IMG/VR virus record: IMGVR_UViG_3300020438_000179
Location: 1 to 29,836 of that record
Direction: 5' to 3' (one strand)
From: a virus
DNA length: 29,836 nt
A program made the position numbers and the translations under genes. Below the pieces are notes generated by a model. It was not told the origin of the DNA. It was given only the letters and a program-made list of their open reading frames with translations, and did no database searches. Positions 2,652-21,010 of this stretch are shown piece by piece; positions within the stretch are counted from its first letter, which is position 1; each line of letters opens with the position of its first letter.

Positions 2652-3050
2652 ATGGCAGATATAAAATCTAAATCCTATAAAGATATTACTCTCGACTTTG
2701 TACCAAATCCTGTAACAGGTGATTTGAATGTAATAAAGAATGAGAGAGCAATAATGCGTTCTGTTAGAAACTTAGTTCAAACTAGGTTGCAGGAACGCTT
2801 CTACAATCCAGAATTAGGGTCAGATGTGTATGATACATTATTTGGTTTCTGCGATGTTGCTACAGGAAGTGTTCTTGCAAGAGACATAAAAAGTCTTTTA
2901 TCTCTTTGGGAACCAAGAATTGATGAGATTATAGTAGAAGCAGATCCAAGACCTGATTTAAATGAATTTGAAATAACTATTTCATACGAAATAGTAGGTG
3001 AACCATTAGCTAGGTCGTCATTTTCGTTCATTTTAGAAGCAACTAGATAA
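2652..3050 (+). CDS. 25: Baseplate wedge subunit gp25
   Basis: The product has 132 residues, the same length as T4 gp25, and belongs to the gp25-like family (sheath-initiator or 'gp25-like lysozyme' fold, related to type VI secretion TssE). The N-terminus has the family's D-x-x-L-D-F pattern followed by I-K-N-E-R-A-I and a helix with V-R-N-L-V-Q-T-R. The E-P-R-I signature (in L-W-E-P-R-I, about residues 85-90) is present and in T4 helps hold gp25 to the inner tube and gp6. In the virion it caps the wedge next to the central hub and starts sheath assembly. It begins ATGGC behind the TATAAATA promoter, and gene 6 follows after four bases. Confidence 0.93.
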   Translation: MADIKSKSYKDITLDFVPNPVTGDLNVIKNERAIMRSVRNLVQTRLQERFYNPELGSDVYDTLFGFCDVATGSVLARDIKSLLSLWEPRIDEIIVEADPRPDLNEFEITISYEIVGEPLARSSFSFILEATR

Positions 3051-3054
3051 AAAC

Positions 3055-4974
3055 ATGCCTGTAACTAAGTTTACTAACCTTGATTTTGATCAAATTAAGG
3101 CTCAAATAAGATCTTATCTTAGAGCAAACAGTAATTTTACTGATTTTGACTTTGAAGGATCAAATATATCGATGCTAATTGATATATTGGCGTATAACAC
3201 CTATATTTCAGCGTTCAATAGTAATATGGTAGTGAATGAATCCTTCTTGGATTCAGCTACATTAAGAGAAAATGTCGTTTCTTTGGCAAGAAATATTGGA
3301 TATGTACCTAGATCTCGTAAATCTGCTCAAGCAATTATAAATTTCAACTTCAAATTCAACGGAAATAGTAATACTGTCAAATTAAGGAAAGGTTTAGTTT
3401 GTGTTGGTGCTCAAAATAACACTTCTTTTACATTTTCGATACCAGAAGACATAACTGTTGTTAGTCCAATAGATGCTGGAAGCAATATTTTAACAAATCC
3501 ACCAAGAACAGCTGTATTTAACAATTTAAGTGTATATCAAGGTACACTTTTAAAGAAATATTTTAATGTAAACTCCAGTTTAGATCAAAGATTTATATTA
3601 GATAACTCATTTATTGATACTGCATCAATTAGAATCTTTGTAAGGAAGTCTGGATCTACTTCTGGGTTAGAATATTCAAAAATAGACAATATTACAAGCG
3701 TAAATGAGAAATCCAATATCTATCTTATACAAGAAATAAAGGATGAGAAGTATGAATTGCTATTTGGTGATGGATTATTTGGTAAAAAATTAGAAAATGG
3801 TGATATCATTGAAGTTAGTTATATTATTACTGATGGAAAAGCAGGAAATGATGGTAAAAACTTCTCATTTAGTGCTGAAGCAGTAGATGATGCTGGAAAT
3901 CCTCTTTCTGCATCACAAAGTCCTGTTATAACAACGATTCAAACTGCCAAGGGAGGCGGTGATATTGAAGGTATAGACTCAATTAAGTATATTGCACCTA
4001 GAGTCTATTCATCACAGTACAGGGCGGTTACAGCAAAGGATTACGAAGGTATTATACAGAGTGTTTTCCCTGATGCAGAGTCTGTTTCAGTGATTGGTGG
4101 GGAAGAATTGGATCCTCCTGAATTTGGTACAGTTATTTTAAGTGTAAAACCTCGAAATTCTACTTTCTTATCCGATTTTACTAAAGTTCAGATACTAGAA
4201 AAGTTAAAAAGTTACTCAATTGCAGGAATTAACCAAAGAATAGTAGATCTCAAGGTTATTTACTTAGAACTTGATGTTACTGCATATTATAATTCAAATA
4301 TTTTCAGTGATAAAGATGGTTTAAAGTCTCAACTTACTGATTCTTTGACAACTTACGGAAAATCTACTAATTTAAATGCATTTGGTGGTAGATTTAAGTA
4401 TTCTGATGCTTTAAAAGTTATAGATGAAACAAATAGTGCATTTACATCAAATATTACAACTCTAACTATAAGGAGAGATCTAAAACCAGTATTTAATACC
4501 TTTACACAATACGAATTATGTTTTGGTAATGCTTTTCATGTTAATCCTAAAGGTAAAAACATAAAAAGTACTGGATTTACCGTTGAAGGTAATGGTAATA
4601 CTGTTTACTTTACAGATCTTCCACATTCAGACGGAAAAACAGGAGATATTGCTGTAATTCAGTTAACTGAATTATCAGGAGATAATGCACCTGTCATTAT
4701 TCCTTCAGCTGGGACTGTTGATTATGTAAAAGGTGAAATTATCATTAATACTATCAATATTACAGGAACTTCTCGTGCTTCTGGTTTGATTGAGATTCAA
4801 GCATATCCAGAATCAAATGATGTTATTGGATTAAAAGATTTGTTCCTTCAATTAGACATGTCTAATAGTGCGATAAATATTGTGAGAGACACCATATCTT
4901 CTGGAGAACAAATATCTGGAATTGGATATAAAGTCACATCTAGTTATTCAAACGGCTCCATCATTAGATCTTAA
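3055..4974 (+). CDS. 6: Baseplate wedge subunit gp6
   Basis: The product has 639 residues, near T4 gp6 (660), with the baseplate J-like order. The N-terminus has I-K-A-Q-I-R-S-Y-L (15-23), D-F-D-F-E-G-S-N-I-S-M-L-I-D-I-L-A-Y-N-T (about 31-50) and then V-N-E-S-F-L-D-S-A-T-L-R. These equal the T4 'DYDFEGSRLNVLCDLLAYNT' region in order and type. The central part has the A-P-R-V-Y-S-S-Q-Y-R-A-V-T-A-K-D-Y-E segment (about 315-332) and L-K-S-Y-S-I-A-G, hallmarks of gpJ/gp6 proteins. In T4, dimers of gp6 form the inner iris of the baseplate and change conformation on contraction. The gene is tightly linked to gene 25 and to the giant gene (gap of six bases), so it is likely translated from the same late mRNA. 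Confidence 0.92.
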   Translation: MPVTKFTNLDFDQIKAQIRSYLRANSNFTDFDFEGSNISMLIDILAYNTYISAFNSNMVVNESFLDSATLRENVVSLARNIGYVPRSRKSAQAIINFNFKFNGNSNTVKLRKGLVCVGAQNNTSFTFSIPEDITVVSPIDAGSNILTNPPRTAVFNNLSVYQGTLLKKYFNVNSSLDQRFILDNSFIDTASIRIFVRKSGSTSGLEYSKIDNITSVNEKSNIYLIQEIKDEKYELLFGDGLFGKKLENGDIIEVSYIITDGKAGNDGKNFSFSAEAVDDAGNPLSASQSPVITTIQTAKGGGDIEGIDSIKYIAPRVYSSQYRAVTAKDYEGIIQSVFPDAESVSVIGGEELDPPEFGTVILSVKPRNSTFLSDFTKVQILEKLKSYSIAGINQRIVDLKVIYLELDVTAYYNSNIFSDKDGLKSQLTDSLTTYGKSTNLNAFGGRFKYSDALKVIDETNSAFTSNITTLTIRRDLKPVFNTFTQYELCFGNAFHVNPKGKNIKSTGFTVEGNGNTVYFTDLPHSDGKTGDIAVIQLTELSGDNAPVIIPSAGTVDYVKGEIIINTINITGTSRASGLIEIQAYPESNDVIGLKDLFLQLDMSNSAINIVRDTISSGEQISGIGYKVTSSYSNGSIIRS

Positions 4975-4980
4975 AAACGG

Positions 4981-7900
4981 ATGATCGAAACATATAGCCC
5001 ATTATCTTCAAGAGTAAAGACCTATCAGGTAGTTGCTGATCAAACTCCAGAGTTTGCTGTTGCGGAAAATCCTCTTCTAGAGAATTTTTTAGAACAATAC
5101 TATATTTCTCAAGATTACCAAGGTGGACCTGTAGATATTGGAGAGAATATTGATCAATATATCAAACTTGATAACTTAACAAAAGATGTTATATCAGGTA
5201 TAGTATCAACTTCTTCGGATATTGATGTTACTGACGATACTATTACTGTTGCAACCAATACTAAAGGGTTTCCATCAGAATGGGGTCTTTTAAAGATTGA
5301 TGATGAGATTATTACATATACAGGAGTAACTGAAAACAGCTTTACTGGTTGTATTAGGGGATTTAGTGGAATTACCACATATCATGCTGAACAGGATGTT
5401 AAAAATTTAAAATGGACAGATAGTATTGCTGCATCTCATGTATCAGGTTCAAGTATACAAAATTTAAGTGCATTATTTCTTCAAGAATTTTATGATAAGT
5501 TAAAAGCGCAATATTCACCTGGTTTAGAAGGTGTACAGTTAAGTCCTACTTTAGATGTTAATAATTTTGTAAAAGAAGCAAGAAGTTTATATGAATCTAA
5601 AGGTACTGACGAATCTTTTAAGATTTTATTTAAAGCATTGTTTGGTTTAGAACCAAAAATCAATGATCTTGAAAAATACCTTATAAAACCATCATATGCC
5701 AATTATTTAAGAAGACAATCTTTTGCTGTACAGGTAGTTTCGGGAGATCCAAATAAGTTAGTAGGTCAAACACTGTATCAAGACAATGAGATAGGTAATT
5801 TATTAGTAAATCAAGCTAGTGGACCTATTTCTGAAGTTGTGCAGATCAGAGATGACTATTATCGTATTTCTGTCTTTATTGGATATGATGATAGGGACTT
5901 AATTCAAGGTTCATTTGTTGTACCAGGAAGAACACAAGCAATTGGTACTATTGGGTTAGGAGCAACAGTAATAACTGTTGATTCTACTATTGGATTTGGT
6001 CAAACTGGTATTATTGAGGTTGGGGTATCCACAGAAACCGATTATCAACAATTAACTTACACTGAAAAAACAATAAATCAATTTATTGGTGTAACTACTA
6101 CAACAAAGGATATATCATCTACTAAAAATATCTTTACACCTACCATTGTATATGGTTATGAGGATAATGATATCTCAAAACCAGTTAATATGAAAATAAC
6201 TGGTGTTTTAAGTAAATTTGATTCTCTTGAAGATTTATATGGATTATCTGAGACTTCTAAGATTAATGTTAAGAACCTTGGAAGATTTATCACCAATCCT
6301 CAAATAGGAAAGACCTTTGAACAGATTTTCTTCAATTCTTGGGTATACAATACTAGTACAAGGTATTTGATTGATGATTTAACTGGTTCCACATTTACTT
6401 TATTGGGTGAAATTGAAAAATCTAGTTTAAAGGTTGGTGATAGGATTGAATTGTTAATAAGAAACACAGAAACTGTTGTTGCAACAGAATTAATTGTTAC
6501 TTATGTCAATACTACCAATAACTCTATTAGTGTATCTGGTACTTTCACGACTACAGCTGGATTATCATATGATATAAGAAGAATACAAGAAAAAGCAATA
6601 AGTAGTATAGTTCCTATTGTTGGTGGTCAAAATCAAATTTTATCTAGTGTTTCTAATACTTACATTTTAGATAAGAAGTATTCAGAAAGTAGTAAAAAAG
6701 AAGGATTTGTAGCTTCTAACTCTATTCCATCATATTCAATTGATACTGATAAAGTACATGCTACTTTAACGAATCCATCAGTATCTGGTGGATCATGGGA
6801 TGGATATCAGACTTTAACTAACAAATATACCACTATTTCCTTTCCACAGAATGTTCCATTCAGAACAGGTGAAGAAATTGCTTATGTTCCAGTAGGAAGT
6901 ACTACTCCTATTGGTGGGTTAACTGCAGATTCATATTTTGTAGAAGTATTAGCGCAAAAGAACAAAATTAAATTATATCCTTCAAGATCTTTTATTCCAT
7001 CAGGAATTGCAGTTGAATTTTCTCCTCCAGATACTTTAACTGGATCTCACGATTTTGTTAGAGTTGAGCAAGCAAGAAAATCAATTTTTCCAGCTAGAAC
7101 TCTTAAAAGGTTTATTCTTGACCAAGATTTAACTAAAGGCACTCAACAAAAGACAACTTCTGAAAGAACCTTAGATGGTAATACAGGAATGTTGATAAAT
7201 GGTGTAGAAATCACCAATTATAAGTCTGACAAGTATATTTACTATGGTCCTTTAAATTCATTAGATATTGTCAATGCTGGTACTGAATATGATGTTCTCA
7301 ATCCACCAAGTATAAGTATTGAGGATAATAATACAGGAATTAATACTGCATATGGTAAATTATCAATTGGCGGTTCAATTACTGATGTTTTAATTGATCC
7401 AGTTGATTTTGAAGTTAAAAAAGTTATTTCTATCGATATACATGGTGGTAATGGTAGTGATGCAAAAGCACAAGCAGTAACAGAATTAAATTATAGATTA
7501 TTTACATTTAATGCAAAATCTTTTTATAATGGAGGTAATATTGATGCTTTAGATGGAAAAGGTGGAAGATTTATAATGGATAAACCACATTATTATAAAT
7601 CTGGTGATAGAGTAGTTTATAGTGCTAATAATAATAATGTAGTTGGACTCCACACTGCTGCAGCTGTTGGTGTAGATACTTCTTTAGTTGAGGGTCAATC
7701 TTATTATGTTGGTGTGACAAGTGCAACTATATTTAAGTTGTATAGAACAAAATCTGATGCTGTTTCTGGTATTGCTAATACTGTAGGATTTGGTACAACT
7801 GCTACTGATTTAAATAGTGGTATTCATCAATTTAGAGATTATCATACTAAGAGGCGCATATCTAGAGTTAATATGCTAGATGGTGGGTCTGGATACACTA

Positions 7901-10900
7901 ATAAGACAATTTCTGTTTTACCTACAGGAATTAGTACATCTAGAGACTTTATTGAATTTGACAATCATGGATTTGAAAATGGTCAAGTAGTTCATTATGG
8001 TATATCAACTAGCGTATCAGCTTCTCCTATTACTGGATTAGCAGTAACTTCACAGTATCAAATACTAACTCTTGATGAGAATAGATTTAGATTATGCTAT
8101 TCTGGTATTGCTACAACAAGAATTCCCGATAAAACAAATTATAAAAACAAAGAATATGTGAGATTTACTGGTATTGGAACTGGTTATCAACATTTTTCAT
8201 ATCCTCCAGTAACTGTTGATGTTAATGTTATTACAGATTCAGATACTCCAGTAGTTCTAGAATCAAATCCCATTGTTCGTGGTAAGGTTGTAGGTACTGT
8301 ATTATATGATAAAGGTAGAGATTATGGATCTAATATTATCAATTTTGAAAAAGCACCTTCAGTTAATGTAAATTATGGTGCATTTGGACAAATTGGATTG
8401 ATTGTAGTTAATGGAAGAATTATTGATGCATTTGTCCAAAGTAGAGGATCTAATTATGATGGTCCTCCTGATTTAACAGTAGTTGGTGTTGGTAGTGCTT
8501 TTGGTGCTAAACTTCGTGCTGTTATGGATGGTAGTGAGATATCATCAGTTATTGTATTATCTTCAGGAGTTGGATATGCTTCATCTACTACAAGTGTACA
8601 AGTAAAAGCTCCAGGAGATGCTGCAACATTATCTACAAGAGTTAGATTACTAGTTGCTAATAAAGTTGAAACTAGTGGAACATCCAATGGTGATTATCTA
8701 ACTCCAGTTGACGGTGGATTAGCTGTAGAATCAGTTGCTTATGGAGCAACCGTTAGAAATGCGTTTGGTGATAATGGAGGTGGACATTCTCCTATAGTTG
8801 GTTGGGCATATGACGGAAATCCCATATATGGAGCATATGGTTTAACTGATGTTGATAATATTCAGTCTACATCAAAAAGAATGAGTTCTTCTTATAGACT
8901 TGATAGTAGCAAAGTTTATAATAGACCATCTTTAAGTGAGTATGAAGCAGGATTTTTTGTAGAAGATTATTATTATGACTCAAATGGAGATTTAGACGAA
9001 CATAATGGTAGATTTACAAAAACTCCAGATTTTGAAGAAGGAATTTATGCATATTTTGCAACTATTGATATTAATAGTACTCCACAATTCCCATATTATA
9101 TTGGTGACACTTTTAGAGGATTTCCTTTAACAGTTAATACTGTAGCAGGTGAAAAAATTAAACAAAGTAATTATGATTTTGAAAATTCAAATTTAGTACG
9201 AAATACCTTTCCATATAAGATGTTTGGAGATGGAGTTTCTTATGATTTTGTATATCAACCATATAAACAGATTCCTAATGTTGCAACACCTAATAGAATC
9301 AATATTGGTTCAGTAGAAAGTCTAAACATAACATCTCCTGGTACAGGATACACTATAGGAGCAAAAATTAATTTTATTGATGATGGTACTGGTGGAAGTG
9401 GTGCAAGTGCTTTTGTTAATTTACTGCAGGGTAAAGATATTAATAAAATTGACACAACATTTGAACAATATACTAATGTAGTTTTTGAATGGAGAAATAA
9501 TAAAGTTATTGGTCATTTTGATCCAAATCATTCATTGAATCTTAATGATTATGTTCAAGTTGCTGGATTATCAACTAGCATCAATAAACTTAATAATTCG
9601 CATACTATTAGTTCTTTAAATATTTCATCCACTCTATTAGAAGATGGATTTGTTGGAGTTACTACTGATATTAGAGTTCAATATATTCCACCAACAGTTT
9701 CAACTGGTGCTACAATTGGATTTTCAACATTAACACCATCTTCGGTAGGAATTGGAACAACTGTACAAATAGGACAAGAAACTGCTAGAATTCTTAATAT
9801 ATTTAAAGATGATGGAGTTCTAAGAATTCGTAGATCATCTGGAGTTGCTACTTCTGGTATAATTGGATTAGGAGTGTCATATTATGCTGATGAAATTGAA
9901 ATTCCTTTAGTTACTGATAAATTTGAATCTACACCTAATAGAAAGATATATTTTAATGCTGAAGAATCGGTTGGAATTGGAACAACTGTAGGACAAACAA
10001 TAACTAGAAATTATCAATATATTGGAGTTACTAAATCTAGATCTTTAAAGACTCAAGAAATATATTTGAAAGAACATGGTCTTAAGACTAATGATGTTTT
10101 AAATTACACAAAAGCTCCTAGTGGAACTACTTTAGGAATAAAAACTGATGGAATTGGAAATACTTTCAATATACCATCTATAGTTTATGCTGTAAGAAAG
10201 ACTGAAGATACTATCGGTGTAAAAACTACCAAAACATCCAATGATGTATTTTTTGTAGTTGGTGGTGGTGATTATAATGATGCTCTTTTTGAGGTTGTAC
10301 CAAGTAAGCAAGTTACTGGAAATGTAGAGAAAATTACATCTACTATTCAAACTGCAGAAAATCATGAATTACAAAATAATGATAATATTCAATTAATTGT
10401 CCAACCTGGTCTTTCTACTGGTATTGGAACAACAACTTTTGCAACTGTTAAAGTTATTGATGATTATTTAATAATTAATCCTCTTAGTGTTGAACCATCT
10501 GGAATAAACACAGTTAATAATAGAATTACTGCATATCAACATAATTTAATAACTGGTGATAAAGTTTTATACTATGGATCTAATCTTCCTGGTGGAATTT
10601 ATCAAAGAGAATATTATGTTGTTAAAATTGATGATAATACGATTCAATTAGCGAATACTCTCAAAGAAACTCAAGGAACTCCTAATGTTGTTGATATTAC
10701 TGGTGTTGGTATTGGGTCTTGGAGTATTAATCCAATTAACCCACAATTAAGACCATTTAGAAGTAATGATATCATATTTGATATGAGTGACCCTAGTTTA
10801 GTAGATAATAATTTAAAATTCTATTATGATAGTAATTTCTTTAATGAATTTGTTGGATCTGGCACAAGTCTTGGATTTGAAATAGTTGGTGTTAGTACTT

Positions 10901-13900
10901 TAGCAACTGTTGGTGTTGCATCAACAAATCCTAATTCTGATAGTCATCCAACTATAACAGTTAAATATTCTGAAACTTCTCCAAAAATATTATATTATAG
11001 TTTATTCACTAATGCTGGTATTAGTACAGCTGATGATACAGTTTTTAATGGTTCTCAAATCAAGTATATTGATAGTTCATATACTTTAGATTATCCAGTT
11101 ACAAGTATTGGTGATACTACATTTACAATCAATTTAAAATATAAACCAGAATCTTTAAATTATAAATCTTTAGATTGTAAAATATTAGAATATACAACAA
11201 CATCTTCTAATGTTACAGGTGGTATTTCCTCAACACAAATAATTAATCCTGGATTAAATTATGCTAGACTTCCTGGTATTAGTAGTATTGGTGACCGTGG
11301 AATAAATGCTACTGTAATTGCTCAGTCTACTGAAATTAATAAATTAGATAGTTTAACCGTTCCTGATGATGTTTATGGTTATCCATCCGATAGAACTCTT
11401 CAACCAGATGCTTTTGTACCTAGAGTTGTTAATATAGACAGTTTTGCAACTATTGATGAAGTTAAGGTAATTGATGGTGGTAAATTCTATATCAATGCTC
11501 CTTCTTTGGTTTTATTTGATAAATCAGATGGTAGTATTATTGATAGTGGACTCATTGTTTGTGAGTTAAGCGATTCTGCTGTAACTAAAGCAACTGTTTC
11601 TGTACCTCCTATTGGTCTTTCTAATAATGACTTTGGTATTGCTCCAATAAGAAATAGTAATGGAATTAGTATTATCAATGTTCAAGCAGCTGCTGGTATA
11701 CTAACTGCTACAATTACTACTCCAGTTTTAGGGTATGTAACAGAACCAATAGTAATTGGTGACAAATTATTAGTAGAAGGCATTGGATATGATGCTGGAA
11801 GTGGTGATGGATATAACTCTGGTGATTATAAGTTCGTTCCATTTGAAGTTACTGATTATAATGATGCCGTTAACCCAAGAGAAGTCACTTTCAATTTAAA
11901 TGGTATTTCTACAAATCCTGGTACTGGAGCAACAGTTTCCTTTGGATTTGGTCAATTAACACAAGCTAATTTTCTTGCTCAATTTGAAGTTGTTAAAGGT
12001 GCTTCTAAATTTATTGAAAACGAACCATTTAAAAGAAACAATAATCCAATAGCAGATGTTGCTTTAGACTTTATTGATTCTAATGCTGCTAAGATTATTG
12101 TTAGTGGTGCAGAACCTCTTGAAATCAATGATATATTAACTGGTAAATTGAGTGGTTCTTCATGTAGAGTAATTGGAATTCAAGAGTTTAATGGAAGTTT
12201 TGATATAGCATCTTCTGTTAAAACATTAGTTGGTTGGAGAGATAATGTTGGTATTATTAATGATACTAATCAAGTATTGCCTGATAATGATTATTATCAA
12301 AATCTTTCTTATGCGATAGAGAGTCCTAAAACTTATGAAGATTTAATCACCTATGTTAATGATATAGTTCATCCATCGGGATTGAAGAATTTTGCTAACA
12401 CTGAAGTTATAGCAAAAGGTCAACCTGGTGACACAAATATTCCAGCAGAAGATGCTGGTGGTTTGGTTCTTGATTTTATTGGTGATCCACTTAGAGTTGA
12501 TTCAATATATCCATATGATTTAGCAAGAGATTTTGAATCTCAGGGTAATATCTCTAAATTTATAGAATTGAGAAATACTCGACTTTCTGACTTTATTTTA
12601 AATAAAACAAACAGAGTTCTTAATATTGATGATATTAGTTCTAAATTTGTGTCTAATGAGTCTAATGATTTAACTGATTCTAGGACAGTTGCTACTTATT
12701 CTGGGGGTAGGTACTTCCAAAGGTTCTTAACACAAACTGTACATCAAGCAGAAGATCCTGCTAAGAATCATTATCAACTTAATGAATTTATTTCAGTAAC
12801 TGTTGATGAAAGCACTTATTTACTTCAAAAGCAAGATTTAACTAATTGGAATCAAGTTGTTGGTCTTGGTACTGGATATGGAACTTTTGATACAAATTAT
12901 TCACAAGCGTTATCACAAACTCAATTAATTTTCCGTCCTAATGAACCATTTGACACTGATTATGAAGTTAAGTCACTACAGACTAATTTCTCAGATTCTC
13001 TAGGTGTTGGTTCTTCGGCATTTGGACATTTCAGATTAGAAGGTGGTAATACACAGATTAGTGCTGCTAGTACTTTAGGAACTTCTACTACTGGTAATAT
13101 ATTTGGAATATCTACTACATCATCACAAGCTGCTATTGTACAATTATTAGTAATTGATGAAGAAGGTGCTAAACAAGTTGATTATTTGGAATATGCACTT
13201 ATGCACAATGGTGTTGACACATATCTAACTGAATTAGCAGCATTTAACTCAAAACAAAATTTAAGTGGATTATCTGCTCCTCAGTTTATTGGTACAGTAA
13301 CATCTAAGATTGAAAGTGGGTTGGTTAAGTTTGATTTTGAAAATGGTCGTACAAATACTGTTAATGTTAAATTTAAGTCAACTATAGTTGATCCTTCTAC
13401 TGTTGGTGCAGCTAACTATAGATTTAAAATTCCATTTACACCAGATGGTACAGAAAGAACTGCAAGACTTGAAGTTACAAGTCAAGCAAAATCTGGTATT
13501 GCAACAGTAGTTGGTTTAACAAGTATTACTGATCTATCTGTCAAATCAACAATTCATGTTGGTTACGGTGAAACTCAATCTTTACATCAAGTTTATCTAT
13601 TATCTGATCCAGAAAAGAGTATGACTTTTATAAGTGAAACTCCTTTGGCAGCAGTTGGATCTACTAGTGGTATAGGTACATTTGGATCTACTTATAGATC
13701 AGATGGTACTTATGGATTGGAATTCCATCCATCTGTTTCTGGTATTGTAAGTGTTTCTGCTTATAATGAAGTATTATATAAAGATCTAGATCCTAATGGT
13801 ACTATAGAAGGTATTGGTGAATTAAATTATGGAGAAGTATATGAAAATGTTGCCCAACAAATATATTTGGGTATTAATAATAGAAATGTTAAATCATTCG

Positions 13901-16900
13901 ATTTAAATTATAATGGAATTCCAATTTATGCTCGTGAAACAAATATTGCAGATAATACTGAAATAAATCGTTCAACTGGTGTGTTTAACCAAATACATTT
14001 CTTCTCTAATACTGAACAATTATCATACCTTCCAGATTCTAACCTTATTGGTATTGGTGGATCTGCATTAATCTACAGTACTGGTGCAGGTGTAACTGGA
14101 TATCTTCCATCTACTGTATACACTATTAAGGATAACAATCAACAATATAGGATTGCTTTAACAGAGAATGATGCAATAGCAGGTCTTGGTGTAACCTTCC
14201 TTGAAGGTACTGGTACTGGTAATAAGCATAGATTCTCTATGAGAAAGAGAGATTCTAAGTCAATGATCTCTATTAGTGGTCTTGTACAAAAACCATTATC
14301 ATACACTTCAATTAATTATGATTTAAATGTTCCTGTTTCTGGATTTGTAACTGCATTTGTATTGAGTGGTATTTCTTCTGTAACTTCTGGAGACTTACTT
14401 AAAATTGAAGATGAATATTCTATTGTAAGAACTGTTGGTTTTGGTACAACTACTATTGGACCAGTTGTAGGAATTGGTACATGGACACTTGTAGAAGTAG
14501 AAAGAGGCGCAGTTGGTACTGCTGCTACAGTACATGCATCTGGTCAAACAGTTAGACTCTTTAGAGGATCTTTCCAAATTTTAGATAGTCAAATACATTT
14601 CACTCAAGCACCTCTTGGTGGTGATAAAGGAATAGTTAACTCTGCTAACTTACCATATGCTAGAGCATCATTTGGTGGTAGAACATTCCTCAGAAGAGAC
14701 TATGAGAAGAACCAGATATTTGATGATATGTCAGAGAGTTTTGATGGATTGGAAACTACTTATCCATTAACTTCTATTGGAGTTGCTGTTACTGGTATTG
14801 GATCAACAGGTGGTAATGGAGTATTATTCATCAATAATATCTTCCAAGCACCATATAGTGAGAATAATACTAGTGCTAATTTCAGGATTCAAGATAATCC
14901 TTCTGCAGGTATTGCTAGTGTTCAATTTACAGGTATTAGTTCTGTAGGATTTGAAACTCCAATAATAGACATAGGAGATATTAATGAGAATCAACTTCCT
15001 AGAGGTGGTGTAATAATTTCTGTTGCATCAACACCAGGTAGAGGATATGCACCATTTGTAGGTGCTAAAGTAAAACCAATAATCAACTCTTATGGAGTTA
15101 TTCAAAGTATTGTTGGTGTTCCGACAACGGGATCAGCTGTTGCTATTAGTACTGCAACTTATAATAATATTACTGGTATTATTGAAGTTACTACATTAGC
15201 ACCACATAATCTTAAGATCGAAGAACCAGTTAAGTTGGAAGGTTTAGAATTTGCTTGTAGTGGATATGGTAATACTTTAGGAATTACTTCCTTTGTTTAT
15301 GATCACATAAGCGGTATTGCTACTATTATTACTAATGCTGCTCATGGATTTACTGATCCAAATCTAATTGGTATTGCTACAGGTTCTCTTACCTTTACTT
15401 GTGGTATGGATAGTAATGCCACTAACCATGTTTATCCTAGAGTTGGAGATCCTATTCATGATAAGTTATTAGAAGTTCGTGCAGTAACAGATAATACATT
15501 TGATGTATTTGTTGGTATTACAACTAATGTTGGTTATACACCTACAAATGCCATCTATGATGCTAATGCTGGTATTATGACGATGACTATACCTAACCAT
15601 AATATTATGGCAGGTAGAAGTATCAAGATTAAGAATAGTTCACTTGACTTTAAGTGTGCTATGGATGGCACTAGTCAGACAAAATCATATCCTAGATCTA
15701 CAGACCCTGTATATGATACCGCAATTTCTGTTGCCTCTACTACTGCTACTGGTATTGCTATAACTGTAGGAACATCTCCTATTGTTAATTATGATATTAG
15801 TACTGCAACTTATACACCTTCCACTGGATTCCTTTCTCTTGACATCGGATCTCATACATTAACGGAAGGAACTTCTATTAAGTTAAAGACAGAATCGCTT
15901 ATTTTCCGTTGCAATACAGATAGTTATATTTCAACTCACACATATCCACGCAATATTATTGACACTCAAACTGTTAATGGCGCAGTTTATGATGCAAATG
16001 CTGGTATAATGACCGTCACAGTTGTACCTGGCGGCAGACTTATTCACGATGGAGACTTTATCAAGTTTGATAATGACTCTATTTCCTTTAAGTGCGACAT
16101 GGATGGCGGTACATCAACTAAAACATATCCAAGATCATCTGATCCTGTTAGTGGTAAGTGGTTACCTATTACAGGCATCACAACCACCTCGTTTAGTGTT
16201 GAAGTAGGTAAGTCACCTATAGAACCTTTTGGCATCACCTCGGCGGTTTATGACCCCACTGCTGGTATTGTAACAGCTACTATCGGTGATCATAATTTCA
16301 TGACAGGTGTTTCTATCCAAATTTCACCTGAATCTTTATCATTCCGATGTGGTTTAGACACTTATCAGAGTTTGCATTATTATCCAAGATCTAGCGATCC
16401 TGGATTTACAACTGCGGTTTCTATTGCTTCTACAAGCGCAAATACTATTTCATTCCAAGTTTTAGCGTCACAACCATCTACAAATATTTCAACACACCAT
16501 TTTGTACCGCATAATGGACTAACTGCTGAATCTGGTACGCAATATGATGGTGCTGTTGGTGTCATGACAGTTAGATCTGCTAATCACGGTCTTACCAATG
16601 GTGATTGGGTTCTATTTGATACTGGTTCAGTTACCTTTACATGCGCTAAAGATGATTATAGCACAACTCATGCATATCCTAGAGAAACAGATCCTTATAG
16701 TGGAAAATGGACACAGGTATCGCATGTAACTACAAATACATTTAGAGTAGATGTTGGAATATCTCCTGATACTTCAGATCATATATTCTCTTCTGGTGTA
16801 ACAGGTGGTATCACAAGATCTCAAATTCATGGTGGTGGTGCTTATGGACATACCTTCCAAGCTGCTGGTGTTGGTAGTATGGATCAGAAGCGTGATAGAT

Positions 16901-19395
16901 CATTTGACCAAGCAATAGGTATTCACTCAGTTAGTGGTAATGTTATTACCCTTCAAGTTGGTGTTTCTACTGATACCAGTGAGCATCGTTATGATATTAT
17001 GGCAGGTCATGAAGCAACTGATGCGGTCATCAGTGGTGGTGCTTATGCACATACATTCCAAAGTGCTTTATCTGGCGCAGTTCAGTATGGTGGAAACTAC
17101 CCTCATAGTTTTGTAAGTTCTGCTGCTAACCCACTTCGCATTGATACATGGGCAGGTACTGCATTGACTCCAACAAATGCTGTATACAATCCTATTTCTG
17201 GAGTTCTACAATTTACAGTTCCTAATCATGGATTAGTGAAACCAGAAAACTTTAAGTTGTCAGGTATTGGTGTTACTTGTGTATATGGTGCTAAATCATA
17301 TCCAAGTGGTGTTCAGGGTTACTTCTACACAGTAAGAGAATCTATCAACTCAACTAAGTTTACTACTACAGTTGGAATGTCTACTGTTTCTCATCAATAT
17401 GTGAGTGGTGGTGAAGTTAGAACAGGTATTACTACTAATATATTCCCAGATTATGATCAACAATTGGATGTAACTACTATTCTTTCAACTAAGAAATTTA
17501 GAGTTAATGCTGGTCCAAGTACTATCCCACATTCATATGTAACTGGTGGTACTGCTTCTCCTTACTATGATTTAACATTTGGATCTGGATATACAACAGA
17601 TCTTGGTACAATTACTGCTATAGGAGCATCTGATTCTGTTGGATCTGGTGCAAATATTACTGCAGTAGTGGGTGCTGGTGGATCATTAATATACACTCTT
17701 GTAAATGGTGGCGCAAATTATACTGAAGATACAGTTATTAATACATTGCAACCATCTGGTGAACTTCTAAGTATTGAAGGTAAGTTTAGATTAGGACTTG
17801 GAAATACTACAACTACTGGTGTTGGATGTTCTATTACTGTTGACATCGTAGGATTAACTACAAATTATGTTGGATATTCTACCTCACCAGAATTTGAATT
17901 ATTTGAAGTTTCTAAATGGAACTTAGCAAAAGCTGGATATGGATTTAAGAAAGGTGATAAGTTTGGTGTAGCTGGTCTATCAACAGATCCTAATGCAGGT
18001 GATCTATTCATGCCATTTGAAATTGAAGTTATTGATATATTCAATGATGATATATCAGCTTGGCAGTTTGGTAATTTAGATTATATTGATAATATTAGAC
18101 CTTTCCAAGATGGTGAAAGACGGAGATATCCTCTTTATTATCAAAATCAGTTAATTAGTTTTGAGATTGATAATAACGATCCAGATTCTAGACAGATCGA
18201 TCTTGCACCTGTTCTTTTGATATTTGTTAATGGTGTTCTTCAAGAACCAAATAAGCATTATACATTCAATGGTGGAACTTCGGTTAGTTTTGAAACTGCT
18301 CCAACTGTAAATGACGATGTATTCATATTCTTCTATAGAGGAACAATTGGTACAGATAGTATGTTATTTGATGTTAACGAACTTATTAAAGAAGGTGATT
18401 CAGTCGAATTGTTTAAGAGTTCTGAACTTGAAAGAAACAATGTTGTAAAAGATAATAGTAATTTTGCACAAAGAGAAGCTCGAATTGTTAGTAGAATTGC
18501 TACAGCATCTGTTGTAGAAACACCATTCTATCAAGGTGGTGGTGTTAATAATAATGATTATAAACCATTAAGATGGAATAAGCAAAAAATTGATAAAGTT
18601 TTTGCTGGTGGATTAGTTTCTAAAGCAAGAGATTCTCAGGAAGCACAGATCTATCCAAATGCTAATGTTATTGCATCTTATGCATCAACTGATACATCGT
18701 TATTCGTTGATCATACAGAATACTTTAGAGATCTTGATGGTCAATTAACTGATGATTTTGGACTTTATGTTTATGGTGTTGGTGTTGGTACAACTGCACA
18801 AGCAGGGGTTAACTGGGAGATTTGGAATGATATTGATCCTTTGAATACCGATGTTAAGGGATATACTGGTTTAATTACTGGTATTACAACTTCTGTTGGT
18901 ATTGGTACTGATCTTGCAATTGTATTCCAATTAGACACTAACAACTTAGTTAATAGTGAAAATGCTTCATTCGTTCAAGACTTTAAAGAAGGATATCCAT
19001 TTAAAGTCTACGCATCAGGAGTGACACCTGCTGCTGGAGTGATAACTAGTACTGATACACATGATTCTGATAGTATTGGTATTAGTACCTTTGAAGTTGA
19101 TAATATATACTATGCACATTCACTATCATGGGACGGAAGTGCTAGAACAGGTGTTATAACCTGCAATATCCATTCTGGAACTGATATAACTGGATTAGTT
19201 GGTGTTGGATCAACTACTCATCCTGCAGCGAGATTTACATGGGGACGCTTCTCTTCAGCATTAAGAGATGCCAATTACCCAGTTTCTCTAACAGCTAAAG
19301 GACTTGATTATAATCATGACTTGGACAAGTGGCCAATTGTACAAAGGCGCAATATTGGTCTTAGAAATACTGGAGCCTTCAATAAAACCTTATAA
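4981..19395 (+). CDS. 7: Giant gp7-like baseplate wedge/virion structural protein
   Basis: This single unbroken frame gives 4804 residues, over four times T4 gp7 (1032). The first ~340 residues (A-V-A-E-N-P-L-L-E-N-F-L at about 27-38, then helices and D-E-S-F-K-I-L-F-K-A-L-F-G) are the conserved N-terminus of cyanophage gp7-type proteins, which should anchor it in the wedge between gp6 and gp8. The rest is a chain of beta-rich modules. It includes an E-I-I-T-Y-T/R-G module (about 79-140, again 3124-3192), many G-x-G-Y glycine modules, a YHYH-like domain (1262-1380), a repeat array with periodic F-x-C (3391-3939, 4066-4144), three G-G-x-Y-x-H-x-F motifs (3954, 4021, 4038), and near the C-terminus an F-V-N-G-V-L-Q-E-P segment with an F-F-Y-R-G-T turn. 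The protein is probably displayed on the baseplate periphery. The gp7 identity rests on the N-terminus and the position between genes 6 and 8. The function of the large extension is unknown. Confidence 0.8.
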   Translation: MIETYSPLSSRVKTYQVVADQTPEFAVAENPLLENFLEQYYISQDYQGGPVDIGENIDQYIKLDNLTKDVISGIVSTSSDIDVTDDTITVATNTKGFPSEWGLLKIDDEIITYTGVTENSFTGCIRGFSGITTYHAEQDVKNLKWTDSIAASHVSGSSIQNLSALFLQEFYDKLKAQYSPGLEGVQLSPTLDVNNFVKEARSLYESKGTDESFKILFKALFGLEPKINDLEKYLIKPSYANYLRRQSFAVQVVSGDPNKLVGQTLYQDNEIGNLLVNQASGPISEVVQIRDDYYRISVFIGYDDRDLIQGSFVVPGRTQAIGTIGLGATVITVDSTIGFGQTGIIEVGVSTETDYQQLTYTEKTINQFIGVTTTTKDISSTKNIFTPTIVYGYEDNDISKPVNMKITGVLSKFDSLEDLYGLSETSKINVKNLGRFITNPQIGKTFEQIFFNSWVYNTSTRYLIDDLTGSTFTLLGEIEKSSLKVGDRIELLIRNTETVVATELIVTYVNTTNNSISVSGTFTTTAGLSYDIRRIQEKAISSIVPIVGGQNQILSSVSNTYILDKKYSESSKKEGFVASNSIPSYSIDTDKVHATLTNPSVSGGSWDGYQTLTNKYTTISFPQNVPFRTGEEIAYVPVGSTTPIGGLTADSYFVEVLAQKNKIKLYPSRSFIPSGIAVEFSPPDTLTGSHDFVRVEQARKSIFPARTLKRFILDQDLTKGTQQKTTSERTLDGNTGMLINGVEITNYKSDKYIYYGPLNSLDIVNAGTEYDVLNPPSISIEDNNTGINTAYGKLSIGGSITDVLIDPVDFEVKKVISIDIHGGNGSDAKAQAVTELNYRLFTFNAKSFYNGGNIDALDGKGGRFIMDKPHYYKSGDRVVYSANNNNVVGLHTAAAVGVDTSLVEGQSYYVGVTSATIFKLYRTKSDAVSGIANTVGFGTTATDLNSGIHQFRDYHTKRRISRVNMLDGGSGYTNKTISVLPTGISTSRDFIEFDNHGFENGQVVHYGISTSVSASPITGLAVTSQYQILTLDENRFRLCYSGIATTRIPDKTNYKNKEYVRFTGIGTGYQHFSYPPVTVDVNVITDSDTPVVLESNPIVRGKVVGTVLYDKGRDYGSNIINFEKAPSVNVNYGAFGQIGLIVVNGRIIDAFVQSRGSNYDGPPDLTVVGVGSAFGAKLRAVMDGSEISSVIVLSSGVGYASSTTSVQVKAPGDAATLSTRVRLLVANKVETSGTSNGDYLTPVDGGLAVESVAYGATVRNAFGDNGGGHSPIVGWAYDGNPIYGAYGLTDVDNIQSTSKRMSSSYRLDSSKVYNRPSLSEYEAGFFVEDYYYDSNGDLDEHNGRFTKTPDFEEGIYAYFATIDINSTPQFPYYIGDTFRGFPLTVNTVAGEKIKQSNYDFENSNLVRNTFPYKMFGDGVSYDFVYQPYKQIPNVATPNRINIGSVESLNITSPGTGYTIGAKINFIDDGTGGSGASAFVNLLQGKDINKIDTTFEQYTNVVFEWRNNKVIGHFDPNHSLNLNDYVQVAGLSTSINKLNNSHTISSLNISSTLLEDGFVGVTTDIRVQYIPPTVSTGATIGFSTLTPSSVGIGTTVQIGQETARILNIFKDDGVLRIRRSSGVATSGIIGLGVSYYADEIEIPLVTDKFESTPNRKIYFNAEESVGIGTTVGQTITRNYQYIGVTKSRSLKTQEIYLKEHGLKTNDVLNYTKAPSGTTLGIKTDGIGNTFNIPSIVYAVRKTEDTIGVKTTKTSNDVFFVVGGGDYNDALFEVVPSKQVTGNVEKITSTIQTAENHELQNNDNIQLIVQPGLSTGIGTTTFATVKVIDDYLIINPLSVEPSGINTVNNRITAYQHNLITGDKVLYYGSNLPGGIYQREYYVVKIDDNTIQLANTLKETQGTPNVVDITGVGIGSWSINPINPQLRPFRSNDIIFDMSDPSLVDNNLKFYYDSNFFNEFVGSGTSLGFEIVGVSTLATVGVASTNPNSDSHPTITVKYSETSPKILYYSLFTNAGISTADDTVFNGSQIKYIDSSYTLDYPVTSIGDTTFTINLKYKPESLNYKSLDCKILEYTTTSSNVTGGISSTQIINPGLNYARLPGISSIGDRGINATVIAQSTEINKLDSLTVPDDVYGYPSDRTLQPDAFVPRVVNIDSFATIDEVKVIDGGKFYINAPSLVLFDKSDGSIIDSGLIVCELSDSAVTKATVSVPPIGLSNNDFGIAPIRNSNGISIINVQAAAGILTATITTPVLGYVTEPIVIGDKLLVEGIGYDAGSGDGYNSGDYKFVPFEVTDYNDAVNPREVTFNLNGISTNPGTGATVSFGFGQLTQANFLAQFEVVKGASKFIENEPFKRNNNPIADVALDFIDSNAAKIIVSGAEPLEINDILTGKLSGSSCRVIGIQEFNGSFDIASSVKTLVGWRDNVGIINDTNQVLPDNDYYQNLSYAIESPKTYEDLITYVNDIVHPSGLKNFANTEVIAKGQPGDTNIPAEDAGGLVLDFIGDPLRVDSIYPYDLARDFESQGNISKFIELRNTRLSDFILNKTNRVLNIDDISSKFVSNESNDLTDSRTVATYSGGRYFQRFLTQTVHQAEDPAKNHYQLNEFISVTVDESTYLLQKQDLTNWNQVVGLGTGYGTFDTNYSQALSQTQLIFRPNEPFDTDYEVKSLQTNFSDSLGVGSSAFGHFRLEGGNTQISAASTLGTSTTGNIFGISTTSSQAAIVQLLVIDEEGAKQVDYLEYALMHNGVDTYLTELAAFNSKQNLSGLSAPQFIGTVTSKIESGLVKFDFENGRTNTVNVKFKSTIVDPSTVGAANYRFKIPFTPDGTERTARLEVTSQAKSGIATVVGLTSITDLSVKSTIHVGYGETQSLHQVYLLSDPEKSMTFISETPLAAVGSTSGIGTFGSTYRSDGTYGLEFHPSVSGIVSVSAYNEVLYKDLDPNGTIEGIGELNYGEVYENVAQQIYLGINNRNVKSFDLNYNGIPIYARETNIADNTEINRSTGVFNQIHFFSNTEQLSYLPDSNLIGIGGSALIYSTGAGVTGYLPSTVYTIKDNNQQYRIALTENDAIAGLGVTFLEGTGTGNKHRFSMRKRDSKSMISISGLVQKPLSYTSINYDLNVPVSGFVTAFVLSGISSVTSGDLLKIEDEYSIVRTVGFGTTTIGPVVGIGTWTLVEVERGAVGTAATVHASGQTVRLFRGSFQILDSQIHFTQAPLGGDKGIVNSANLPYARASFGGRTFLRRDYEKNQIFDDMSESFDGLETTYPLTSIGVAVTGIGSTGGNGVLFINNIFQAPYSENNTSANFRIQDNPSAGIASVQFTGISSVGFETPIIDIGDINENQLPRGGVIISVASTPGRGYAPFVGAKVKPIINSYGVIQSIVGVPTTGSAVAISTATYNNITGIIEVTTLAPHNLKIEEPVKLEGLEFACSGYGNTLGITSFVYDHISGIATIITNAAHGFTDPNLIGIATGSLTFTCGMDSNATNHVYPRVGDPIHDKLLEVRAVTDNTFDVFVGITTNVGYTPTNAIYDANAGIMTMTIPNHNIMAGRSIKIKNSSLDFKCAMDGTSQTKSYPRSTDPVYDTAISVASTTATGIAITVGTSPIVNYDISTATYTPSTGFLSLDIGSHTLTEGTSIKLKTESLIFRCNTDSYISTHTYPRNIIDTQTVNGAVYDANAGIMTVTVVPGGRLIHDGDFIKFDNDSISFKCDMDGGTSTKTYPRSSDPVSGKWLPITGITTTSFSVEVGKSPIEPFGITSAVYDPTAGIVTATIGDHNFMTGVSIQISPESLSFRCGLDTYQSLHYYPRSSDPGFTTAVSIASTSANTISFQVLASQPSTNISTHHFVPHNGLTAESGTQYDGAVGVMTVRSANHGLTNGDWVLFDTGSVTFTCAKDDYSTTHAYPRETDPYSGKWTQVSHVTTNTFRVDVGISPDTSDHIFSSGVTGGITRSQIHGGGAYGHTFQAAGVGSMDQKRDRSFDQAIGIHSVSGNVITLQVGVSTDTSEHRYDIMAGHEATDAVISGGAYAHTFQSALSGAVQYGGNYPHSFVSSAANPLRIDTWAGTALTPTNAVYNPISGVLQFTVPNHGLVKPENFKLSGIGVTCVYGAKSYPSGVQGYFYTVRESINSTKFTTTVGMSTVSHQYVSGGEVRTGITTNIFPDYDQQLDVTTILSTKKFRVNAGPSTIPHSYVTGGTASPYYDLTFGSGYTTDLGTITAIGASDSVGSGANITAVVGAGGSLIYTLVNGGANYTEDTVINTLQPSGELLSIEGKFRLGLGNTTTTGVGCSITVDIVGLTTNYVGYSTSPEFELFEVSKWNLAKAGYGFKKGDKFGVAGLSTDPNAGDLFMPFEIEVIDIFNDDISAWQFGNLDYIDNIRPFQDGERRRYPLYYQNQLISFEIDNNDPDSRQIDLAPVLLIFVNGVLQEPNKHYTFNGGTSVSFETAPTVNDDVFIFFYRGTIGTDSMLFDVNELIKEGDSVELFKSSELERNNVVKDNSNFAQREARIVSRIATASVVETPFYQGGGVNNNDYKPLRWNKQKIDKVFAGGLVSKARDSQEAQIYPNANVIASYASTDTSLFVDHTEYFRDLDGQLTDDFGLYVYGVGVGTTAQAGVNWEIWNDIDPLNTDVKGYTGLITGITTSVGIGTDLAIVFQLDTNNLVNSENASFVQDFKEGYPFKVYASGVTPAAGVITSTDTHDSDSIGISTFEVDNIYYAHSLSWDGSARTGVITCNIHSGTDITGLVGVGSTTHPAARFTWGRFSSALRDANYPVSLTAKGLDYNHDLDKWPIVQRRNIGLRNTGAFNKTL
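5215..5400 (+). repeat. E-I-I-x-Y-T/R-G module, copy 1 (within the gp7-like gene)
   Basis: Residues about 79-140 of the giant protein run D-D-T-I-T-V ... L-L-K-I-D-D-E-I-I-T-Y-T-G ... F-T-G-C-I-R-G-F-S-G ... H. The pattern is a beta strand, then I-x-x-E-x-I-x-Y, a variable hairpin, and R-G followed by a T/S-rich turn and His. It recurs in the same protein (14350-14556) and in the DUF4815 protein (27105-27320). Similarity is at protein level only. Confidence 0.6.
8764..9120 (+). other. YHYH-like domain inside the gp7-like protein
   Basis: Residues 1262-1380 have the ordered signature of the YHYH family (PF14240-type): G-G-G-H-S-P-I-V-G-W-A-Y-D-G-N-P-I-Y-G at 1266-1284, a Y-x-L/acidic stretch, L-D-E-H-N-G-R-F-T-K-T-P (1338-1349), G-I-Y-A-Y-F (1354-1359) and F-P-Y-Y-I-G-D (1370-1376). 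The eponymous tetrapeptide appears here as Y-A-Y-F, so the central histidines are replaced. The family function is poorly known; here it would be a structural or ligand-binding module. This is recognised by motif order from memory, not by a search. Confidence 0.65.
14350..14556 (+). repeat. E-I-I-x-Y-T/R-G module, copy 2 (within the gp7-like gene)
   Basis: Residues about 3124-3192 carry G-D-L-L-K-I-E-D-E-Y-S-I-V, a long hairpin, then V-E-V-E-R-G-A-V-G-T-A-A-T-V-H-A-S-G. It is the second copy of the module seen near the N-terminus of the same protein. The R-G-x-x-G-T-x-A-x-x-H ending is clearer here. Confidence 0.6.
15151..17412 (+). repeat. Eight-unit degenerate repeat array with periodic cysteine
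   Basis: The units follow the pattern Y-D/N-x-x-x-G-I-x-T-x-T-(I)-x-x-H-x-x-x-x-G-x-S-I-K-x-x-x-x-S-L-x-F-x-C-x-x-D-x-x-x-x-x-x-Y-P-R-x-x-D-P, then a variable tail ending V-G-x-S-P. The unit cysteines fall at residues 3426, 3474, 3559, 3644, 3705, 3790, 3888 and 4100. Spacings are 85 for units 1-2, 2-3 and 4-5, but 61 between 3 and 4, where the tail segment is missing, and 98 between 5 and 6. The first and last units are degenerate. A separate segment with G-G-x-Y-x-H-x-F motifs (residues 3940-4050) interrupts the array before the last unit. Confidence 0.8.
16831..17112 (+). repeat. Three G-G-x-Y-x-H-x-F motifs
   Basis: Residues about 3951-4044 of the giant protein carry G-G-A-Y-G-H-T-F-Q, then G-G-A-Y-A-H-T-F-Q and G-G-N-Y-P-H-S-F (tyrosines 3955, 4022, 4040). 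Histidines are aligned in each copy. They lie between unit 6 and the last unit of the cysteine array. Short basic and acidic segments (K-R-D-R-S-F-D) separate the first two. Confidence 0.65.
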
Positions 19396-19432: not shown

Positions 19433-21010
19433 ATGGCAGCAATTATAACCGATCAATTTAGGATTATCAACGCTAATAACTTCATGGATGATGTTACTAG
19501 CGGAAATAACTCTTACTATGCTTTTCTTGGATTAGCAAATCCTACGGTATCGGGATTCGGAAGGACAGATACTTGGAATAGTACTACTGTTCAACCACCA
19601 TCACCTGTTGATAGTATCGATTACAATAACCATGTATACGATACTATGTTATTTGGAAGGAAAGTCTTTCCTGGTGATGTTAGAAGGTTGATTAGAAAAG
19701 TTACTTGGACTAAAGGTACATCATATGACATGTATCGTCATGACTATAGTACGACTAATCGTTCTCTAGTTTCTAACTCAAGTAGACTTTATTCCGCAAA
19801 CTACTATGTTATGAACAAAGACTATAGAGTCTATGTTTGTATTAATAATGGTTCTGCTGGTATTTCAACTATTGCTAGTGCATCTCTTGATGAACCTACA
19901 TTTACTGATCTTGAACCATCATCTGCTGGTGTAAGTGGTGACACTTACCTTTGGAAGTATATGTTCACAGTTCCCCCTGCGGATATTGTGAAATTTGACT
20001 CTACTGAATATATTGCGGTTCCTAATGAATGGGAAACCACTACTAATGCTGATGTTAAAGTTGTTAGAGAAAATGGAGATTCTGATACTAATAATAACCA
20101 AATTAAAGTAGTATCAATTGATGAGGCAGGAACAGGATATAGTTTTCTTTCCAGTCCTATTGAGGTTGATATTATTGGTGATGGTACTGGAGGTAAAGTT
20201 AGGATACTAACTAATACTCAAGGACAGGTTATTTCTTCCCAAGTTACTAATGGTGGAAAGGGTTATAGTTATGCTCGTGTTGATCTTTCTTCTATAAATG
20301 GTGCTGCTACCAAATTTGCTAAGTTATCACCTATTATTCCTCCTTCAAAGGGGCATGGTTTTAATGCTTATAAAGAATTAGGAACTGATAAAGTTTTAAT
20401 CTACACAAGATTTGATGCTTCATCATATGATTTTGCATCGGATACCAAATTTGCTCAAGTTGGATTGATTAGAAACCCAACTGCAATTGGTGTAGCTGGA
20501 ACTAATTACTTACAAACTTCCGAGTTTTCTGGATTGAAATCACTTAAATTTACTGGTGATACTACACAAGTTCTTGGTATTGGTACACAGATTGAGCAAA
20601 GTATTTCTGGAGTTGGTACTGCCAGAGGATATGTTGCTTCATATGATGTTGACACTAAAGTGATAAAGTACTTCCAAGATAGAAGTCTTTCTTATAATCA
20701 ATCAATATATGATACAACAGATAGTAAAGAAGTTAACGATCAAGCTCCTGTAATTAACTTCCAATCTGGTGCTTCTGCAGATTCAGTTACTAGCACTGCT
20801 TTTAGTGTTAGTGTAGATTCTACATTTAGTGGTATTTCAACAACTACACCTGCTGGTAAGGTTGTTGATTTAGGCGTTCAGTTTACAAATGGTATTGCTG
20901 AAGCTGAGATAAATAAGAGGAGTGGCGAGATCATCTACCTTGATAATAGACCTTCTATTACAAGAAATGTTCGTCAAAAAGAAGATATCAAAATCGTATT
21001 AGAATTCTAA
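19433..21010 (+). CDS. 8: Baseplate wedge subunit gp8, enlarged
   Basis: The product has 525 residues against 334 in T4. Both ends match T4 gp8 in order. The N-terminal third has D-T-W-N (about 43-46), Y-R-V-Y-V-C-I, and G-D-T-Y-L-W-K-Y-M-F-T-V-P-P followed by E-Y-I-A-V-P (about 191-196). The centre has F-A-Q-V-G-L-I-R-N-P (340-349). The C-terminus has G-E-I-I-Y-L-D-N-R-P and ends in V-L-E-F. Two insertions explain the extra length. One (residues ~199-300) has G-x-G-Y glycine modules like those of its giant neighbours, and one (~350-495) is Thr/Ser-rich. gp8 is a wedge dimer that in T4 contacts gp6, gp7 and gp10. It starts ATGGC without a ribosome site, behind a late promoter; the next gene follows after four bases. 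Confidence 0.88.
   Translation: MAAIITDQFRIINANNFMDDVTSGNNSYYAFLGLANPTVSGFGRTDTWNSTTVQPPSPVDSIDYNNHVYDTMLFGRKVFPGDVRRLIRKVTWTKGTSYDMYRHDYSTTNRSLVSNSSRLYSANYYVMNKDYRVYVCINNGSAGISTIASASLDEPTFTDLEPSSAGVSGDTYLWKYMFTVPPADIVKFDSTEYIAVPNEWETTTNADVKVVRENGDSDTNNNQIKVVSIDEAGTGYSFLSSPIEVDIIGDGTGGKVRILTNTQGQVISSQVTNGGKGYSYARVDLSSINGAATKFAKLSPIIPPSKGHGFNAYKELGTDKVLIYTRFDASSYDFASDTKFAQVGLIRNPTAIGVAGTNYLQTSEFSGLKSLKFTGDTTQVLGIGTQIEQSISGVGTARGYVASYDVDTKVIKYFQDRSLSYNQSIYDTTDSKEVNDQAPVINFQSGASADSVTSTAFSVSVDSTFSGISTTTPAGKVVDLGVQFTNGIAEAEINKRSGEIIYLDNRPSITRNVRQKEDIKIVLEF

Follow-up and report, generated by a model that had tools for sequence, protein, structure and literature searches.

The C-terminal part of a giant protein encoded in the baseplate operon of a putative T4-like marine virus contains an array of eight related units with one cysteine each, and homologous units are spread among marine cyanophages, where the cysteine is kept in nearly every copy. 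On balance, we lean toward the view that the barrel modules form an accessory string at the periphery of the baseplate, serving as a spacer or an adhesion arm, and that the cysteine of each module faces inward and has a structural role.

The giant protein and its eight-unit array

The window, that is, the whole stretch of DNA that was analyzed, is the 29.8 kb virus record IMGVR_UViG_3300020438_000179 (29,836 nucleotides). The open reading frame (ORF) carrying the array is flanked by gp6 and gp8 in the baseplate operon, the position of gp7 in T4-like phages, and residues 9-3653 of its product match the baseplate wedge subunit family phrog_2885 (E about 0). The order gp25-gp6-gp7-gp8 is that of P-SSM2 (gp7, PSSM2_111, 5,195 residues; about 36% identity over the first 2,340 residues), and the gp7 region of S-SSM7 is likewise similar in gene order. 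Over the first 2,340 residues, the nearest named relatives come from Synechococcus and Prochlorococcus phages, whose gp7 proteins are 34-39% identical to this region. The only match to coliphage T4 gp7 itself is to PF23786 (Baseplate_wedge), with an E value of 5e-4 that is below the cut-off, and a DUF4815/VrlC-type giant protein is encoded after gp8 in the window. According to a 2020 study, these phages have no T4 gp7 but VrlC in its place (PMC7029224), so that 'gp7' is perhaps no more than a positional name. From the operon order and the nearest relatives, we therefore call the product of the giant ORF the gp7-position protein of a putative cyanomyophage-type virus.

Table 1. Baseplate genes and array units in the window.
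Feature	Position in window	Strand	Evidence
gp25 baseplate wedge	2652..3050	+	phrog_261
gp6 baseplate wedge	3055..4974	+	Pfam Gp6-like_1st, phrog_219
Giant baseplate-wedge protein, gp7 position, carries the array	4981..19395	+	ORF, 4804 aa; phrog_2885; P-SSM2-like gene order
Unit 1, truncated, N-terminal part, Cys3426, no YPR (residues 3382-3433)	15124..15279	+	HMM iE 7e-5, profile 4-49
Unit 2, canonical, Cys3474	15259..15507	+	HMM iE 2.5e-26
Unit 3, canonical, Cys3559	15517..15762	+	HMM iE 3.6e-29
Unit 4, shortened, without the C-terminal two strands, Cys3644	15772..15975	+	HMM iE 1.9e-21, profile ends at 64 of 82
Unit 5, canonical, Cys3705, His replaced (GGR)	15952..16200	+	HMM iE 4e-25
Unit 6, canonical, Cys3790	16210..16455	+	HMM iE 3.8e-26
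Unit 7, canonical, Cys3888	16510..16749	+	HMM iE 5e-29; weak E1_FCCH match at 16561-16620
Unit 8, degenerate, Cys4100, no Asp at +3, YPS (residues 4057-4131)	17149..17373	+	HMM iE 1e-9
gp8 baseplate wedge	19433..21010	+	Pfam Phage-Gp8, phrog_438

An HMM built from the units themselves detects eight of them in residues 3382-4131, six canonical and two degenerate, so that the count of eight in a preliminary description of this DNA holds if units 1 and 8 are included. The cysteines at 3426, 3474, 3559, 3644, 3705, 3790, 3888 and 4100 are spaced by 48, 85, 85, 61, 85, 98 and 212 residues; the cysteine positions, the exact 85-residue period and the single spacings of 61 and 98 are thus as first described. 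Chance periodicity can be ruled out: three cysteine pairs exactly 85 residues apart have a probability of about 5e-6 under random placement, and self-similarity windows of the protein score up to 113 versus at most 48 in shuffled sequences.

The motifs noted earlier are present in most but not all of the units. The acidic residue three positions after the cysteine is Asp in all six canonical units and is missing from unit 8; the histidine, said to occur in each unit, is replaced in the unit of Cys3705; and YPRxxDP is intact in five of the six canonical units, that of Cys3644 having YPRNIID. The 61-residue spacing corresponds to unit 4 minus its two last strands, the end of this unit overlapping unit 5. 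At the DNA level, the unit copies are only about 70% alike, which indicates that the duplications are old.

Two further features of the gp7-position protein are worth recording. One is a set of three short repeats of the pattern GG(A/N)Y(G/A/P)H(T/S)F lying between unit 7 and unit 8 (window 16831-17115, gp7 residues 3951-4045), and two of their DNA copies (16832-16866 and 17033-17067) are 89% alike and hence younger than the cysteine units. In the middle of the protein lies a YHYH domain (PF14240, E 9e-25; window 8785-9084, gp7 residues 1269-1368), which has been linked with host recognition or predicted to be a zinc or metal-dependent hydrolase (PMC7029224, PMC7824862). Upstream of gp25, an ORF at window positions 581-1336 matches phrog_1574 (unknown function) and, weakly, a phrog glycosyltransferase.

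Spread of the units among marine phages

The profile search and the counting of units proposed in the preliminary description show a widespread unit in arrays of variable size. Searches with tblastn found the array in 243 phage records, all from Synechococcus phages, Prochlorococcus phages, cyanophages or marine viruses, with the unit-bearing proteins annotated as gp7, tail fiber, short tail fiber, YapH or structural, and at least 515 viral contigs encode the unit. The number of units per protein ranges from 1 to 33 among the relatives. The P-SSM2 and S-SSM7 gp7 proteins and the proteins of P-RSM6 and P-RSM4 carry 7 to 21 units, every unit that spans the cysteine column having the cysteine, and in P-SSM2 gp7 the array occupies the same region as in the window protein. 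More broadly, the gp7 proteins of marine cyanophages differ in the number and order of units, and some are without the array: S-SRM01 and ACG-2014f have gp7-position proteins with no units at all, and the units of the S-T4 protein are mostly partial, so that the array is accessory to gp7. In other giant proteins, the units are accompanied by LamG lectin domains.

A scan of 84,980 genomes yielded five loci, in one Prochlorococcus genome and in metagenome-assembled genomes (MAGs) of other groups, mainly from marine sources; these are probably phage contigs. Long unit arrays occur in four MAG contigs labeled Planctomycetaceae, Euryarchaeota or Rhodobacteraceae (L075, L076, L078 and L079), with 33 units in a single ORF of L076, labeled Euryarchaeota. 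These four are probably misbinned phage contigs.

Neither Pfam nor NCBIfam has a model for the unit, and an NCBIfam search gave no match. In the literature that we found, the cysteine repeat of gp7-position proteins is not described, and in the sources available to us it is undescribed as a domain. It is a very abundant module of marine phage virions. Among the other database matches, an iota-carbonic anhydrase sequence match (E 0.003) was rejected as a chance hit, given that no single stretch was significant and later matches were without the cysteine. Weak matches to Phycobilisome (PF00502) occur in the giant cyanophage virion proteins L117:1-12228 and L129:1-11768; that in L117 has an E value of 2.6e-6 with no single significant stretch, and a repeat artefact is possible.

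Gain, loss and possible shuffling of units

Relatives differ by whole units, in line with the duplication and loss of units that had been proposed: arrays of close relatives consist of 8 (the window, L003 and L004), 9, 10, 11 or 15 units. In a tree of the units, copies group by array position across contigs, which rules out recent tandem duplication in the window phage; many forks are weak, given that only 78 columns are available. The register 85-85-61-85-98 is fixed across many contigs of close relatives, so the shortened and lengthened units that were seen as the spacings of 61 and 98 are real, but they are not recent events in this phage. Four relatives (L005, L022, L009 and L018) have extra units on the N-terminal side. 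The window, L003 and L004 lack a unit that relatives have near residue 3945, with a spacing of 212 replacing spacings of 141 and 176; deletion is the simplest reading, the alternative being recombination.

In L033, L032, L038 and L039, full units are immediately preceded by N-halves without the cysteine (Y-D-P-x-T-G ... H-G-L) and immediately followed by C-halves (x-Y-P-R-x-x-D-P-x-S-x-K-W), so half-units seem to have been shuffled. The N-halves repeat the N-terminal hairpin with its histidine and without the cysteine; the HGLxxGD hairpin may therefore be part of the general barrel, with the cysteine hairpin as a special addition.

Predicted fold of the unit

Models from AlphaFold2 for a pair of units (pLDDT 87.5) and for a single unit (pLDDT 89.2, pTM 0.75) predict an all-beta domain of seven strands, in which a helical turn of three residues directly follows the cysteine. 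Compared with known structures by VIA-align, the pair model is most similar to E1 FCCH domains (Z 6.7, rmsd 2.2, 65 aligned), whereas for the single unit the FCWL1 phage head-to-tail protein (6.0), E1 FCCH (5.8) and endosialidase barrels (5.2-5.6) are tied; the phi92 and endoNF endosialidase barrels score Z 5.3-5.6 across models. The next matches are EF-Tu domain II, riboflavin synthase and ATPase barrels. All of these Z-scores are under 8, and a Foldseek search of the unit models against the PDB gave no match with E below 0.001.

Profile searches point in the same direction at similarly low levels. When 125 units were compared with Pfam, the most common matches were E1_FCCH (PF16190; 9 units) and End_beta_barrel (PF12195; 6 units, best E 0.0079), all of them weak. 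For E1_FCCH, the gathering score is 29.5 bits, the best sum being 27 bits over the 4,076 residues of L117 and the window scoring 13 bits. Although the two independent routes agree, the Z-scores and the E1_FCCH bit scores are below the level of family membership and the End_beta_barrel E values are weak, and we accordingly claim only a likeness. Taken together, the models and profiles point to an EF-Tu-domain-II-like beta barrel, nearest to E1 FCCH and endosialidase barrels, with an added cysteine hairpin of the pattern S-L-x-F-x-C-x-x-D ... H/K-x-Y-P-R-x-x-D-P. The HG[LF]xxGD hairpin fits the E1 FCCH profile weakly; no counterpart of the cysteine hairpin is apparent there, and the function of this eukaryotic E1 enzyme is not shared. 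End_beta_barrel comes from phage endosialidases, which like the window protein are phage tail proteins, but no sialidase domain was found, and the tandem array and the cysteine hairpin set the window protein apart. This barrel assignment would provide a first structural handle on the giant baseplate proteins of cyanophages.

Conservation and predicted orientation of the cysteine

For an unbiased estimate of conservation, the HMM was masked at the cysteine and seven other motif columns, and 695 non-redundant units (under 80% identity) were gathered. Column 47 is Cys in 693 of these (99.7%), followed or matched by Gly19 (99%), Pro59 (97%), Tyr58 (96%), Arg60 and His28 (94% each), Tyr14 (93%), Asp50 (89%) and Asp63 (88%), with column 56 being His in 68% and Lys in 25%. 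Only two units, those at L129 residues 2078-2144 and at L141 residues 1416-1478, lack the cysteine; both have also lost the entire hairpin as far as YPR and carry Asn in place of His28. Self-similarity being genuine and the cysteines being conserved in homologs, neither of the objections anticipated in the preliminary description applies. No residue of the domain is more strictly conserved than the cysteine, and this poses a simple, testable question of tail chemistry, namely, whether it is a free thiol, a metal ligand or a cross-link.

Exactly one cysteine is present in 917 of 960 distinct units (96%), which rules out a disulfide within the unit, and the cysteine is kept in all 202 isolated units; hence it would act inside its own unit or together with a partner that is not part of the array.

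Mean-field direct coupling analysis (DCA) of the 695 units indicates strand pairs at columns 10-14/20-25, 12/45, 43-46/55-57, 35-38/69-71 and 69-72/78-82. Because L43, F45 and C47 alternate with exposed T44 and T46, C47 is predicted to face inward, and the strand directions suggest that it lies at the same barrel end as His28, Asp50 and His56. Columns 50-56 and 49-56 are coupled, as are, weakly, 28-47, with the couplings among near-invariant columns resting on very few sequences and that of 28-47 on two.

Possible roles of the array and its cysteine

Under the favored reading, small beta-barrel modules would be inserted in the C-terminal part of the gp7-position protein, and at the baseplate periphery they would lengthen it into a spacer or an adhesion arm for host contact, the number of modules shifting as whole units are gained and lost. 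Within each barrel, the cysteine, which stands at the end of the inward-facing strand register L43, F45 and C47, would play a structural part: at one end of the domain, it would form a polar cluster together with His28, Asp50, His/Lys56 and Tyr58. A peripheral arm fits the location in the baseplate operon, the fiber annotation of sister proteins, the LamG neighbors and the YHYH domain.

Over such divergence, Ala, Ser or Val can usually take the place of a buried cysteine with a purely structural role. The cysteine of the units, in contrast, is kept as strictly as the conserved glycine, which argues for a specific chemistry, and we tentatively entertain, as the less probable case, that it has a chemical activity or binds a ligand (a metal site with His28 and Asp50 or a new intradomain covalent bond would be examples), with up to 33 sites per protein. 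If so, marine cyanophage tails would bear long strings of such sites. The units contain no conserved Gln or Lys column of the kind expected from the thioester (conserved Gln) or isopeptide (Lys with Asn/Asp) motifs of adhesins, and both domain types were rejected on this ground.

The specific proposal that each unit binds a metal ion through Cys47, His28, Asp50 and often His56, giving a string of sites with an outcome like that of the T4 gp37 iron sites, appears doubtful to us. The frequencies of these four residues, the couplings of column 56 to 49 and 50 and of 28 to 47, and the joint loss of cysteine, YPR hairpin and His28 in two units are all compatible with it, and metal sites have been proposed in marine phage fibers (PMC11705849). 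However, His56, the likeliest additional ligand, is Lys in a quarter of the units, His28 is lost in about 6% while the cysteine stays, and, conversely, His28 is retained in 59 of 83 N-halves without the cysteine and so is not tied to it; the 28-47 coupling comes from the two sequences mentioned above. With the HxH iron-binding fibers of the T4 gp37 type, the units share repeated conserved histidines, here in marine phage tail proteins, and possible metal sites, but they differ in being centered on a cysteine and in their predicted closed single-chain barrel, and HxH is absent from the unit column frequencies. The early hint that the conserved Cys, His and Asp bind metal or link chains has thus found no support so far.

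It is improbable, in our view, that the cysteine is covalently linked to another virion protein, such as a neighboring baseplate protein, and locks the baseplate until contraction. Such bonds have precedents in the disulfide-linked contractile tail and baseplate of phage Milano (PMC10811340) and in the gp10-gp7 disulfide suggested for T4 (PMC3004832), and the one unpaired cysteine per unit would suit them. Yet the same cysteine stays fixed across proteins that carry anywhere from 1 to 33 units, in units that stand alone and in virion proteins of different kinds, so that a dedicated single partner is hard to imagine, and the strand pattern predicts that it points inward. Links between identical chains would be less natural here, given that T4 gp7 is a monomer present once per wedge, in six copies per baseplate (PMC3004832).

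Head-to-tail Cys-Cys bonds between neighboring units of one chain, which the regular 85-residue spacing in part of the array might bring to mind, are very improbable, because the isolated units keep the cysteine and so have no need of a bond to the next unit, and unit numbers, odd and even, and spacings vary freely.
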